Source: Oscillospiraceae bacterium (lineage in GTDB: Bacteria; Bacillota; Clostridia; Oscillospirales; Ruminococcaceae). Taken from it: 64,000 nt of DNA. The notes below the pieces were generated by a model. It ran no database searches. It was not told where the DNA came from and worked only from the letters and a program-made list of their open reading frames with translations. Each line of letters opens with the position of its first letter. Position 1 is the first letter of the stretch. The position numbers were made by a program, and so were the translations under genes. This document shows positions 2,843-28,068 of the stretch, piece by piece. The DNA lies in assembly GCA_021202155.1 (NCBI GenBank), contig JAJQDP010000005.1:37260-101259 (forward strand), in the 5' to 3' direction.

Positions 2843-3646
2843 ATGGGAATCTGGGGATACGTTGGAATATTCTATCTCGTCAGCCTTATCTGCTGTGCGG
2901 TCGGATTCAAGAAGTATGTATACTTCCTGTCGGTCGGCTATGGATTTTCGATAATCGGCTTGGGAGTTGCCTATTTTGCCATCTCACTTGCGAGAGTTTT
3001 CGACTGGAATGTATTATCATGCTTCCAGTGTTGTTTGTTCATGATTTACGGTGCAAGGCTTTCCGGCTTCCTGATCAAAAGAGAGCTTAAAAATGGCAAT
3101 TATCGCAAGGTTCTCAAAGAAGCCACGAAAGAGGACGAAAAGCCGATGCCAGTCTTCGTAAAGATCGCAATCTGGCTCTGCGTCGGTATTCTCTACTTCG
3201 CGCAGACCTCGCCTGTCTTCTTCAGAATCTACAATGGCAAGGGTTCAGATGCCGTCCAGCTTGTCGGCATCATTATCAGTGCCGCAGGTATAATTCTTGA
3301 AGCCATCTCAGACCAGCAAAAGAGTGCGCAAAAGGCGGAAAACCCGAATATGGTTGCTACCAAGGGGCTGTTCAAGATTGTAAGATGCCCGAATTATTTG
3401 GGCGAGATTATCTTCTGGACTGGCGTTCTTGTCGGTTCGCTGAACGCTCTCCACGGAGTCGGACAGTGGCTGACAGCGGTTATAGGCTGGATTCTCATCG
3501 TCTTCATCATGTTCAACGGCGCACAGCGTCTCGACCGCCGCCAGGAAAAGAGATACGGCGACATGAAGGAATATCGTGACTACGCCGACCACACGCCGAT
3601 TATCATTCCGCTGATACCAGTTTATCATGTAGGGAAATACAAATAA
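2843..3646 (+). CDS. DUF1295 / steroid 5-alpha-reductase-like membrane protein
   Basis: LFKIVRCPNYLGEIIFWTGVLV ... YRDYADHTPIIIPLIP, typical DUF1295 C-terminus; multiple TMs. Confidence 0.75.
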   Translation: MGIWGYVGIFYLVSLICCAVGFKKYVYFLSVGYGFSIIGLGVAYFAISLARVFDWNVLSCFQCCLFMIYGARLSGFLIKRELKNGNYRKVLKEATKEDEKPMPVFVKIAIWLCVGILYFAQTSPVFFRIYNGKGSDAVQLVGIIISAAGIILEAISDQQKSAQKAENPNMVATKGLFKIVRCPNYLGEIIFWTGVLVGSLNALHGVGQWLTAVIGWILIVFIMFNGAQRLDRRQEKRYGDMKEYRDYADHTPIIIPLIPVYHVGKYK

Positions 3647-3649
3647 ATT

Positions 3650-3741
3650 TGTAGGGGCTGGATACACAGTTGGCTTTGCCAACTGCCCCGCCCGAACCAC
3701 GAAATCTGCACCACAACGGGCGGATAATATCCGCCCCTACA
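3650..3741. repeat. 92-bp MITE-like element with 9-bp perfect terminal inverted repeats
   Basis: TGTAGGGGC...GCCCCTACA termini; internal CAGTTGGCTTTGCCAACTG and GGGCGGATA-A-TATCCGCCC hairpins; right half recurs at 38008-38031. Confidence 0.7.
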
Positions 3742-3779
3742 GGTGTTTCTTAACTACGTTTAACGAAAGGAAAGAATAT

Positions 3780-4427
3780 ATGACCATTCCAATGGCAATC
3801 GTCGATTACATCCCGGTATGCATGTTTCTCATAGCCGCTGTAATCTTGCAAAGAGACCTCTACAAAAGCATGAGCAAGGGTGCATTCGCGCTCTTCTCGG
3901 CAGGAACCATCACCGTTTTCGTCGCCGGATTCTACAAGGCGACATGGAAGCTCCTCTATGCCGCAGGAGTCTGCGACTTCACACCCTTAAACAAATCCTT
4001 CTTCCCGATGCAGACGACCGGCTTTGTCCTCGCCGCGCTCGGAATGCTCGCACTCCTCTGCCACAAGCAGGGTGACGATGCTGAGAAGCTCAATTCTGTA
4101 GCAATCATCCCGGCTTTGGGAGTCATCCTCACCGCCGCGGCACCGTCGGAATACTCCGGCACGATGATTTTCGTCATGCTGATGGTTCTGGGCGTACTCA
4201 TCTTGGATGTCGGACTCATCATCATCTCGGCTAAGCATAAGCAAACCCTCGCCGCAGTAATTTACGGAATCTCGTTCGTTTTCGTAATGGGCATGGGCTA
4301 CCTCTCGTCGAAAGATTTCGCCGAAGCCTCGATGAACTGGATAGCGGAATTCACCAACATCTTAGGACAGGGAACGTTCCTCCTGGCAACATGGATGCTT
4401 CATAAAAAGGCGTTGGCGGAGAAGTAA
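3780..4427 (+). CDS. Multi-pass membrane protein of unknown function
   Basis: Hydrophobic ORF with RBS (GAAAGGAAAG) upstream; no recognised motif. Confidence 0.7.
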   Translation: MTIPMAIVDYIPVCMFLIAAVILQRDLYKSMSKGAFALFSAGTITVFVAGFYKATWKLLYAAGVCDFTPLNKSFFPMQTTGFVLAALGMLALLCHKQGDDAEKLNSVAIIPALGVILTAAAPSEYSGTMIFVMLMVLGVLILDVGLIIISAKHKQTLAAVIYGISFVFVMGMGYLSSKDFAEASMNWIAEFTNILGQGTFLLATWMLHKKALAEK

Positions 4428-4449: not shown

Positions 4450-4479
4450 GCCCCACCGGTATGGTGGGGCTGTTTTTAT
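4450..4479 (+). terminator. Intrinsic terminator
   Basis: GCCCCACC-GGTAT-GGTGGGGC followed by TGTTTTTAT. Confidence 0.85.
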
Positions 4480-5774
4480 ATCTTGACTATCTGATCTATT
4501 TCGTATAGCGGAAGGTTCACAAGACTTTCCTCAACTTTAAAATCAGACATCGACGTACGGACTGCAAGCTCCGGCTTGAACCTCTCCTGATAGGCTTTCA
4601 GGCTCTTTGCTTTGAGGTTAACCTCAGCCTTCACTTCAACAGGAATAATATTCTCGCCGGAATCAACAACAAAATCAATCTCGCATGTACTTCGCTCATT
4701 GGTGTAGTAGTAAATGCCCAAATCATCAATGGTCTTCAACTGTTGACAGACATACTGCTCAGTGAGTGCACCCTTGAATTCCACAAACATATCGTTACCG
4801 TCAAGGAGCACCGACTGGTGAAGTCCCGCCATGCATCCAAGCAAACCGACATCAACCAAGTATAACTTGAACGCCTTCAAATCCTCATACGCTTTTAACG
4901 GAATCCCCGCTGAATTCACCCTTGAGACCTTGTGAACAAGCCCGCAGTCGCACAGCCACATGATGGCTGTTTCATAATCCTTCGCTCTTGCCCCTTCGCG
5001 GACAAGACCATAGACGAACTTCTTGTTCTCTTTCGCAAGCTGAGAAGGAATACTGTTCCACACCATTCGGATTTTCGGTACAATATCAACAGGAGCGTGC
5101 TTCGAGAAATCCTGCTCATAAGCCGTGAGTATCTTCTTCTGAATTTCACGAACCTCATTGAAATCGTGATTTTCAGCGAAGCTCTGAACAGCCTCGGGCA
5201 TTCCTCCAACAAAATAATACTGCTTCAAAGCGTCGATATATGTTTGTTTGAACGCAGTCACCATCTCAAAGTCCTGTCTCTCAAGAAGCTCAGCAAACTG
5301 CTCTTTGCCGGTTGCCATCAGAAATTCTCTGAAAGAGAGCGGGTAGAGCTTCAGAAAATCGACCTTGCCGACCGGAAATGAAGTTCCCTCGTGCAAGGCT
5401 ATCCCCAAAAGCGAGCCGGCGCAGACGATGTGATATTCTGGTGCGTTTTCACGGAAATATTTAAGAGACGACAAAGCCCTCGGAACCTCCTGAACCTCGT
5501 CAAAAATCAGGAGCGTATTCTGAGGATTTATCTTTCTGCCGCAATACAGTTCGATTCCCAAGATAAGCCGCCCAGTGTTCAGATCGCTCGCAAACAGCTC
5601 TGCCATCCGTGAGTTTGAATCAAAATTTATATAGACAGTTTCATCATAGGCAACCCGCCCGAATTCCTTCATAAGCCAAGTCTTCCCGACCTGCCGCGCG
5701 CCCTCGATAATCAAAGGCTTACGGTGCGCGCTTTCCTTCCATTTCAAAAGCTTTTCGATAGCTACTCTGTACAT
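4476..5774 (-). CDS. AAA+ ATPase with DUF4143 C-terminal domain
   Basis: Walker A IIEGARQVGKTWLM, Walker B TLLIFDEVQEVPRAL, C-terminal EIDFVVDSGENIIPVEVKAEVNLKAKSL (PD-(D/E)XK-like). Confidence 0.85.
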   Translation of the reverse strand: MYRVAIEKLLKWKESAHRKPLIIEGARQVGKTWLMKEFGRVAYDETVYINFDSNSRMAELFASDLNTGRLILGIELYCGRKINPQNTLLIFDEVQEVPRALSSLKYFRENAPEYHIVCAGSLLGIALHEGTSFPVGKVDFLKLYPLSFREFLMATGKEQFAELLERQDFEMVTAFKQTYIDALKQYYFVGGMPEAVQSFAENHDFNEVREIQKKILTAYEQDFSKHAPVDIVPKIRMVWNSIPSQLAKENKKFVYGLVREGARAKDYETAIMWLCDCGLVHKVSRVNSAGIPLKAYEDLKAFKLYLVDVGLLGCMAGLHQSVLLDGNDMFVEFKGALTEQYVCQQLKTIDDLGIYYYTNERSTCEIDFVVDSGENIIPVEVKAEVNLKAKSLKAYQERFKPELAVRTSMSDFKVEESLVNLPLYEIDQIVKI

Positions 5775-5804
5775 AATCTCACCTCGCAGTTATAGTATAT
5801 GTAC

Positions 5805-5833
5805 ATTATAACACGTCATTACAAAAATTGCAA
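5805..5833 (-). promoter_or_regulatory. Sigma-A-like promoter of the DUF4143 ATPase
   Basis: Minus strand TTGCAA - 17 nt - TATAAT. Confidence 0.75.
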
Positions 5834-5834
5834 C

Positions 5835-5905
5835 GAAAAATGTAGCCAGCACTACACTTTTTGCAAGGAAAAAGTGTGGGTGACTACATTTTTTGCAGGG
5901 AATAA
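5835..5905. repeat. Operator-like repeats upstream of ATPase promoter
   Basis: ACTACACTTTTTGCAAGGAA (5851) and ACTACATTTTTTGCAGGGAA (5883), 32-bp period, plus an inverted partial copy GAAAAATGTAG at 5835-5845. Confidence 0.7.
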
Positions 5906-5908
5906 GAG

Positions 5909-6568
5909 TCACATCTTTGCCGTCGCTGTATTTTCCGGTACAGGCAGATACGAATACTCTTCCGGAAACACCACTTTCGACCAATCAATCTTTCTTGCAA
6001 AATAAACTATCTCAGAATACTTTTCTTCACTTATCTTCTTTCTGTATGTAGCAATTACTCTGACATAGTCTGAGACGTTATTTCTGAGGTCTTCTTTAAG
6101 AACCGTATTGGGAATGTACTCTCCGCTTTCTTCATCCTTTACAAACCCCACACATGCTTTTGTACCCCCTGCAAGCTTTTCGGTATACAGTTTCGGACGC
6201 ATTGAGCTGAAATCGCCAACCATGTTAGCCATCAGGCTTTTGTTTATGATATATGGGAGAATATCAAGCTTCATCGGCGTTGTTCCCTTATCCGAAAACT
6301 CAAAATCATCAGGGCTCAACCTATGCGCCAGACAACGCTCATAAAACTCCGCCGCAGAAAACATTGGCATACCATTCTGATTATTTGTAGTTGGTCTCAA
6401 ACCGGTCATGTGCATATAACTGTAGTCGTGAAATGTCACTTCAACATAGGAAATCCGCTTGTGCTTGTCCATGCAAACAAATAAGAGATTCCGATTATTC
6501 AGTTCATCCCGATACTTTTCAGCACAACTTACTACCGTATCGATAGCATCTTTCTTAGAATACTGCAT
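5909..6568 (-). CDS. PBECR4-like (nuclease-fold) domain protein, putative toxin
   Basis: MQYSKKDAIDTVVSC...YSYMHMTGLRPT...FYERCLAHRL...; ATG at 6568 preceded by TTGGAG; the ORF-track start at 6580 is TTG. Confidence 0.55.
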   Translation of the reverse strand: MQYSKKDAIDTVVSCAEKYRDELNNRNLLFVCMDKHKRISYVEVTFHDYSYMHMTGLRPTTNNQNGMPMFSAAEFYERCLAHRLSPDDFEFSDKGTTPMKLDILPYIINKSLMANMVGDFSSMRPKLYTEKLAGGTKACVGFVKDEESGEYIPNTVLKEDLRNNVSDYVRVIATYRKKISEEKYSEIVYFARKIDWSKVVFPEEYSYLPVPENTATAKM

Positions 6569-26629: not shown

Positions 26630-27949
26630 TCAGCTCCATCCAAGTAGCCAATCTATCACACCCACCGATTTTATCCCATCATAAGAATTGTCCAAACCGG
26701 TATTCAGCGACAGAACGATCTTTTCATAATTATCTCCTATTTTTCTCAAGGGCGCAAGTTCTCTTCGACGGACATCCTCACTTGTCATTGATTCTGTGAC
26801 CTGAATGTAAACCTTTTCATCGGCGTTCGTCGCGATAAAGTCTATCTCCATATTGTCGATTTTTCCTATTGAAACATCATATCCCCGGCGGAGAAGCTCA
26901 AAGTAAACAACGTTTTCAAGAGCATGACCACTATCACGATCCCGGAAGCCCAAAAGATAGTTTCTCAAACCCATGTCTACGATGTAATATTTTCCAAGTG
27001 TACGAAGATACTCCTTGCCCTTAATGTCAAATCTCTTGATTTCATAGAAGAAGTACGCCTCGGTCAATGCGTTGACATACAGCGACACTGTGTGAGCACT
27101 CGGAGCTTCCCTCTTTCCGGTTTCAAGTAAGCCTTCGTTTGCAAGGACATTTCCAATAGACGAAACGGAAATATTACTCCCGATATTATCAGCAAGGAAC
27201 ATCACTATTTTGTTGAGGAGAATGGAATCTGTTATCCTTTTTCCTCCTCTGCGATTTTCGCGTTCTAAAATATCTCGCATGACAACCGTTGAATAAATAC
27301 CCTCAAGAAGCATCAGTGCTTTCTCTTGATTCAAGCCTACCTCCGCGATACCAGGCATTCCACCAAAGCGCATATATGCCTCAAATGCTTCTTTCAAATC
27401 GTAAACTGCACCATTTTTATCTCTCACCTGCTTATGAATTCCACCGAAAGCACTTTCAGATTCAACAACCTCAAAATCATGGAAATACAAAAATTCACTG
27501 AAAGAAAGCGGAAGCATACGGATTTCAACGCATCTTCCTGACAGATAAGTCGAATATTCCGATGAAAGCATATAGGCATTAGAGCCTGTGACATAAATAT
27601 CACAATTAAAATCTACCCTGAACGAATTTATGGCATCCTCCCATTTGCTGACACGCTGAATCTCATCAAAGAAAAGATACATCCGCTTATCAGAAAGCAT
27701 ATGTTTTTTTACATAGTTATAAAAGCTGTCGACGGTCATATCCTTAAAATCGTACGATTCAAAATTCATTTCAACAATATGATCGTCTGAAATACCTGCC
27801 TTTCTTAAGTGTGCCGCCATCAGTTTAAGCAAACTCGATTTTCCGCACCTGCGAATACCGGTCACAACCTTAACCTGCTCTGTGTCCTGAAATGCTATTA
27901 ACTTTTGCAAATACAAATCTCTCTTCTTTAAATTACGAGAATCTATCAT
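26630..27949 (-). CDS. AAA+ ATPase with DUF4143 domain (start MIDSRNL)
   Basis: VVTGIRRCGKSSLLKLM; MYLFFDEIQRVSKWEDAI; ENVVYFELLRRGYDVSIGKIDNMEIDFIAT. Confidence 0.88.
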   Translation of the reverse strand: MIDSRNLKKRDLYLQKLIAFQDTEQVKVVTGIRRCGKSSLLKLMAAHLRKAGISDDHIVEMNFESYDFKDMTVDSFYNYVKKHMLSDKRMYLFFDEIQRVSKWEDAINSFRVDFNCDIYVTGSNAYMLSSEYSTYLSGRCVEIRMLPLSFSEFLYFHDFEVVESESAFGGIHKQVRDKNGAVYDLKEAFEAYMRFGGMPGIAEVGLNQEKALMLLEGIYSTVVMRDILERENRRGGKRITDSILLNKIVMFLADNIGSNISVSSIGNVLANEGLLETGKREAPSAHTVSLYVNALTEAYFFYEIKRFDIKGKEYLRTLGKYYIVDMGLRNYLLGFRDRDSGHALENVVYFELLRRGYDVSIGKIDNMEIDFIATNADEKVYIQVTESMTSEDVRRRELAPLRKIGDNYEKIVLSLNTGLDNSYDGIKSVGVIDWLLGWS

Positions 27950-27972
27950 GAAATCGCCTCCCATTTGATAAT

Positions 27973-28001
27973 AGCATAGCACAATTTCAATTATCTGTCA
28001 A
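27973..28001 (-). promoter_or_regulatory. Promoter of the second DUF4143 ATPase
   Basis: Minus strand TTGACA - 17 nt - TATGCT. Confidence 0.8.
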
Positions 28002-28004
28002 CAC

Positions 28005-28068
28005 TTTCTGCACTCCAGTGCAAAAACTTTTTTATTTCCGGAGTTTCTGCACTGAAATGCAAAAACTT
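28005..28068. repeat. Paired 25-bp direct repeats upstream of ATPase promoter
   Basis: TTTCTGCACTCCAGTGCAAAAACTT and TTTCTGCACTGAAATGCAAAAACTT, 22/25 identical, 39-bp period. Confidence 0.85.

Follow-up and report, generated by a model that had tools for sequence, protein, structure and literature searches.

Promoter repeat arrays with clade-specific spacing at DUF4143 ATPase genes suggest autoregulation of a candidate phage-defence family

The L010 and L002 loci

The window (the whole 64,000 nt stretch of Oscillospiraceae DNA that was analysed) carries, on the minus strand at nt 26,630–27,949, a gene (L010) for a 439 aa ATPase of the AAA_14/DUF4143 family. The protein, a member of clade C, matches AAA_14 (PF13173) at 118.9 bits (cut-off 27) and DUF4143 (PF13635) at 53.3 bits (cut-off 28.1); NCBIfam returned no match. 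Upstream on the same strand are a Shine-Dalgarno sequence, GGGAGG (nt 27,957–27,962), and a promoter, TTGACA-17-TATGCT (nt 27,973–28,001; −35 at 27,996–28,001 and −10 at 27,973–27,978), which is kept in orthologs. Beyond the −35 lie the two 25-mers of the original prediction, TTTCTGCACTCCAGTGCAAAAACTT (nt 28,005–28,029) and TTTCTGCACTGAAATGCAAAAACTT (nt 28,044–28,068), which are exactly as described: 22 of 25 positions are identical (three differences), the period is 39 bp, and they stand upstream of TTGACA-17-TATGCT on the coding strand of L010. The perfect TGCACT-CC-AGTGCA dyad is likewise present. Read on the coding (minus) strand, the putative operator copy adjoining the −35 is AAGTTTTTGCACTGGAGTGCAGAAA and the second, 39 bp upstream, is AAGTTTTTGCATTTCAGTGCAGAAA; each is an imperfect palindrome of the form AAGTTTTTGCA-N6-TGCAGAAACT (halves also given as TTTTTGCA and TGCAGAAA). 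The first copy is kept in orthologs, while the second is flipped in the ortholog L011, as would be expected of a dimer site. The palindrome is retained from Oscillospiraceae to Veillonella and in one Bacteroidota genome at 42% protein identity. A pattern search of the 2.25 Mb genome, allowing up to two mismatches, found the operator at the L010 promoter only. L010 therefore has what appears to be a private operator at its own promoter, abutting the core elements.

The first DUF4143 ATPase gene of the window, L002 (nt 4,476–5,774, minus strand), belongs to clade B and specifies an intact E..D..EVK nuclease-like motif. Its array (nt 5,800–5,910, minus strand) comprises CTGCAAAAAATGTAGT and TTGCAAAAAGTGTAGT, 32 bp apart, and a diverged copy, TTGCAATTTTTGTA, the TTG of which is that of the −35 (TTGCAA-17-TATAAT). 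A TGCAAAAA core had been thought common to both ATPase loci, and this resemblance proved to be coincidental. With 5 occurrences in the window against 3.25 expected, the octamer shows no enrichment there, its orientation relative to the gene is opposite at L010 and L002, and at L002 (nt 5,858–5,865 and 5,890–5,897) it forms part of a different, non-palindromic array with 32 bp spacing. Lack of enrichment, differing orientation and differing array type together rule it out as a family motif.

Arrays across the genome and the family

There are ten DUF4143 genes in this genome, and the repeats upstream of them differ in sequence from gene to gene. A direct-repeat score was computed identically for every gene over the 150 bp before its start; nine of the ten scored 42–69, the exception without an array being L001, and the 99th percentile of 104 control gene starts, drawn from 18 stretches (about 354 kb) of the genome and from the window, was 36.5. 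A single control exceeded 40, a short tandem repeat. L010 scored 52.0, compared with a mean of 23.4 (sd 5.0, maximum 44.0) for the 104 other starts. Privacy of the site sequence is well established for L010 only, because matches with two mismatches to the L007 repeat, CTTGCTTTTTCGTG, occur at chance level; its exact matches are found only at its own promoter.

The original prediction had been staked on a survey of DUF4143 promoters, and when this was carried out the arrays were found to be enriched there. The survey took in DUF4143 genes of related genomes, 100 genomes across the phylum, named genome contigs and plasmids, with gene starts set by rule (Shine-Dalgarno sequence and distance to Walker A), a few of them wrongly. 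Repeats at a shuffle p ≤ 0.01 precede 30 of 83 members (<70% identity) and 7 of 104 controls (Fisher p = 6e-7), and their offsets cluster at 32–34, 39–40, 46 and 66 bp. Its conclusions apply to clades A to C and to Bacteria for the most part; the only archaeal member, Methanosphaera L155, shows an offset of 40 (p = 0.1).

On a maximum-likelihood tree, the spacing of the repeats follows the ATPase clade. Clade A genes (L005, L006) carry non-palindromic direct repeats at 23 or 46 bp, and clade B genes (L002, L003, L004, L007, L008) have non-palindromic direct repeats at 32–33 or 66 bp, often around AAAARTG. The arrays of clade C (L010 and relatives) are palindromes at 39–40 bp, with palindromy far above that of shuffles at even spacers; an outer AAGTTT is common to them and the inner bases differ by lineage. 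In the L009-like subclade of C the palindromes are 75–86 bp apart (75–84 bp for the genes on the tree) and flank the promoter. Clade E is weak (33–34 bp), and clade D (L001-like) has no array, nor do inverted repeats in the last 70 bp before clade D genes exceed those of controls. Between −10 and start, four orthologous clade D genes (L001, L038, L039 and L040) are nearly identical in sequence (TTTATGATAAAATATGATTCATCACCGATT), although their sequences further upstream are unrelated; a control site of another kind may lie in this stretch. One IMG/VR contig of 26.6 kb (IMGVR_UViG_3300029967_000193) holds three DUF4143 genes of two clades (L172, L208 and L241).

The spacing sets had been learned from a first sample, and a blind test was made with clade profiles and spacings fixed beforehand, on previously unused IMG/VR loci with <75% identity to the training set. 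The predicted spacing was present in 29 of 53 genes against 4.9 expected (exact binomial 8e-17). By clade, it was found in 5 of 5 genes of A (0.20 expected, p = 1e-7), 12 of 14 of B (1.31 expected, p = 3e-11) and 12 of 34 of C (3.39 expected, p = 6e-5). Several of the clade C misses have highly significant repeats 75–76 or 86 bp apart, like L009, and were left uncounted. In the joined set, which includes the training genes and has only these 53 as its blind part, clade spacing was seen upstream of 69 of 115 genes, directly downstream of 6 of 111 and far upstream of 5 of 111. Given the AT-rich composition of these regions, and the common ancestry of the upstream sequence in close orthologs, it might be asked if ordinary promoter composition or shared descent mimics significance. 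The dinucleotide shuffles, same-genome gene starts, downstream and far-upstream controls, de-duplication at 70–75% identity and the blind test all contradict this, and it can practically be dismissed.

The encoded protein, its promoter and the likely binding partner

AlphaFold2 models, built as monomers, have pLDDT values of 90.7 for L010 and 90.3 for a clade B member, and predict an NTPase core, a helical segment, a winged helix and an alpha-beta domain of PD-(D/E)XK topology, in that order. In the alignments, NTPase residues G31, R34, G36, K37, D95 and E96 are invariant; in the L010 model, the winged helix-turn-helix comprises helices 242–254, 262–271 and 285–297 (the third). A core with Walker A and B motifs followed by a winged helix gives a STAND/Orc-like fold by modelling and Foldseek, in keeping with the STAND/AAA+ NTPases. 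Among solved structures, the closest in fold are NLR/STAND proteins, Orc1/Cdc6 on DNA, RFC, SSO1545 (2fna) and PABY2304 (2qen), with TM-scores of at most 0.47 by query length, so low that they indicate fold class only. Orc1/Cdc6 proteins use their winged helix on repeated DNA sites. Searches of PDB sequences gave nothing informative for clade C and, for clade B, only a midasin match of about 50 residues around the P-loop.

Clades B and C differ in the last domain. In clade B, E365, D367 and E380-V381-K382 are invariant, the catalytic pattern of PD-(D/E)XK enzymes. In clade C, including L010, D370 and Q383 are invariant and the lysine is lost (YIQV[T/A/S]), so that, judged by its sequence, the L010 protein is unlikely to be a canonical PD-(D/E)XK nuclease. 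This bears on the reading in which the arrays serve mainly as something other than operators, such as a tether, a site for cutting or moving DNA, or an iteron-like replication element, their overlap with promoters being secondary. The Orc1/Cdc6-like fold matches, the PD-(D/E)XK-like domain and the occurrence of these genes on plasmids and IMG/VR contigs as isolated mobile genes would suit it. The arrays, however, lie upstream only, not downstream, and are arranged around core promoter elements, and it is clade C, with the clearest palindromes, that lacks the nuclease lysine. We regard a mainly non-operator role as very improbable.

Where the units were significant and a promoter could be recognised, overlap of the two best copies with the −35 or −10 was seen in 24 of 40 cases for clade C, 13 of 20 for B and 3 of 8 for A (raw counts, with no expected-overlap null). 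Four clade B genes (L004, L007, L161 and L167), from hosts as distant as Oscillospiraceae and Pasteurellaceae, have a copy whose first bases are the TTG of the −35, at 17 bp from the −10. A half-site extends into the −10 in Veillonella L023, and in the L009 group one palindrome is upstream of the −35 and another downstream of the −10. Beside the L009 ATPase gene is a Fic-family-like gene (L097, assigned by eye, start at about nt 4,600 on the searched strand) with palindromic repeats TTTCTCCCAAA...TTGGGAGA, 53 bp apart, the second of which wraps around the −10; similar regulation may apply to Fic defence candidates.

These positions bear on the direction of control. A bound ATPase could instead activate its own promoter in positive feedback, as do STAND regulators like MalT, and a MalT structure (8bob), that of a STAND activator, is among the fold matches of the clade B model. 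Both clear copies of L010 and L148 are wholly upstream of the −35, a place open to activators; at L010 they abut the −35 rather than cover it, as the sites of an activator might. Many copies elsewhere sit on the −35 or −10 themselves, the L009-like group has its second palindrome downstream of the −10, and most of the promoters, with good hexamers and 17 bp spacing, hardly need an activator. For the family we therefore consider activation unlikely and repression the better reading.

Neighbouring genes are not conserved beyond genus-level groups, one plasmid pair aside, so that no protein other than the ATPase accompanies the array. Outside the window's own genus group, a neighbour gene is common to 11 of 290 locus pairs, of which ten are within a Ruminococcus bromii-like group and one is the plasmid pair. 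The suggestion that these loci are TA-like units did not hold up, as there is no conserved second gene and the paralogs tested all match a single-gene defence candidate (see below); a type II toxin-antitoxin pair was rejected on the same lack of a second gene.

Binding of the arrays by other host regulators would agree with the weak covariation between site sequence and recognition helix. In a test on 60 non-redundant palindromes, the window at the recognition helix came no higher than 95th of 430, and tests of single columns on this set were uninformative. When the set was narrowed to 25 operators in register at an AAGTTT edge, the three best of 431 eight-residue windows for the inner bases start at 291–293, inside the predicted helix 285–297, a result that is suggestive only since the subset was picked after the first test. 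Protein identity and site similarity are correlated in clade C (Mantel r = 0.30, p = 0.001) and not significantly in clade B (p = 0.17). Against other host regulators stand the different sequence at each paralog within one genome, the confinement of the L010 operator to a single place in its genome, the tracking of ATPase clade by spacing across Bacillota, Bacteroidota, Fusobacteriota, Pseudomonadota and IMG/VR contigs, and the lack of any regulator gene travelling with the unit. Such regulators are accordingly a rather improbable explanation, and the ATPase remains the favoured binding protein.

Proposed autorepression and relation to known systems

Private arrays with clade-set spacing suggest that each protein switches off its own gene. 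We infer that the ATPase probably binds its private array and represses its own promoter through it. In clades A, B and C, every AAA_14-DUF4143 gene would then be a self-contained unit, in which the ATPase reads the array at its own promoter, probably through the central winged helix and as a dimer or higher oligomer, and when bound there represses its own transcription. The clade would fix the geometry (23, 32–33, 39–40 or 75–86 bp between sites) and the lineage the site sequence, and autorepression would keep a candidate phage-defence NTPase low until needed. Of the self-regulating operator/regulator pairs originally proposed, the array side is strongly upheld by enrichment, clade spacing, paralog specificity and promoter overlap, while binding by the ATPase is inferred. 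More speculatively, and on balance improbably, the array may be more than an operator: a STAND-like ATPase would be parked on it as a clade-specific oligomer, and infection or loss of host promoters would release it, in one event derepressing the gene and arming the protein, which would make of each lineage a one-gene immune switch with a private DNA tether.

The PDC-S01 models of PADLOC were matched by all seven paralogs tested, L010 aligning with PDLC04787 over residues 6–437 (E = 1.9e-151). As befits a single-gene system, neighbours are common only inside genus-level groups and in one plasmid pair. Among prokaryotic defence loci PDC-S01 is reported to rank fourth in abundance (29,494 in Bacteria, 9,986 in Archaea) and, like most PDCs, awaits validation (PMC12988326); in rumen genomes it is reported as the most frequent individual locus (PMC13356809). 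By sequence, the members tested belong to this widespread, unvalidated single-gene candidate for phage defence. No close solved relative of PDC-S01, or mechanism for it, was found in this analysis. Nor was a report of operator arrays at PDC-S01 genes found in the open literature, outside which most subscription journals and preprints lie; among open papers naming DUF4143 or COG1373, those on COG1373 are, by title and abstract, not about such arrays. Of the 234 plasmid records that carry relatives of the L010 protein, 175 are from Acinetobacter. DUF4143 genes were also seen between cas3 and cas4 inside a type I-B CRISPR operon of Arcobacter cloacae (L160, nt 2,926–4,185), near BREX genes on an Acinetobacter plasmid (L156) and adjoining a type III restriction-modification system on a Glaesserella plasmid (L161).

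Private arrays with clade-fixed spacing predict the DNA target of every member and suggest the geometry of the oligomer. They make autorepression testable and could help to reveal what releases the protein, and a single genome with up to ten mutually distinct candidate regulator/operator pairs would be useful for work on the divergence of DNA specificity.

The arrangement resembles several known systems in part. Like PDC-S01, it is a single gene without conserved partners, but PDC-S01 is defined by protein only. The nearest folds for the NTPase and winged helix are those of SSO1545, PABY2304, the NB-ARC of NLRs and Orc1/Cdc6, although identity is 10–16% and the present proteins continue from the winged helix into a PD-(D/E)XK-like domain; Orc1/Cdc6 moreover act at origins, whereas these arrays are at promoters. 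IniR is a transcription regulator with an AAA+ domain predicted to be similar to SSO1545, but it is large and MalT-like, has an SdiA-similar C-terminal DNA-binding domain and controls another operon, iniBAC (PMC5760070). Type II toxin-antitoxin operons would share the proposed autoregulation through palindromic promoter operators, but here no second gene travels with the ATPase. A precedent for repression of a phage-defence promoter through direct repeats is RptR (PMC12255303). RptR is small, is separate from the defence genes and has a single conserved site, TAGCTA, while in the present family the role of repressor would fall to the candidate defence ATPase, and the site sequence differs with each lineage.
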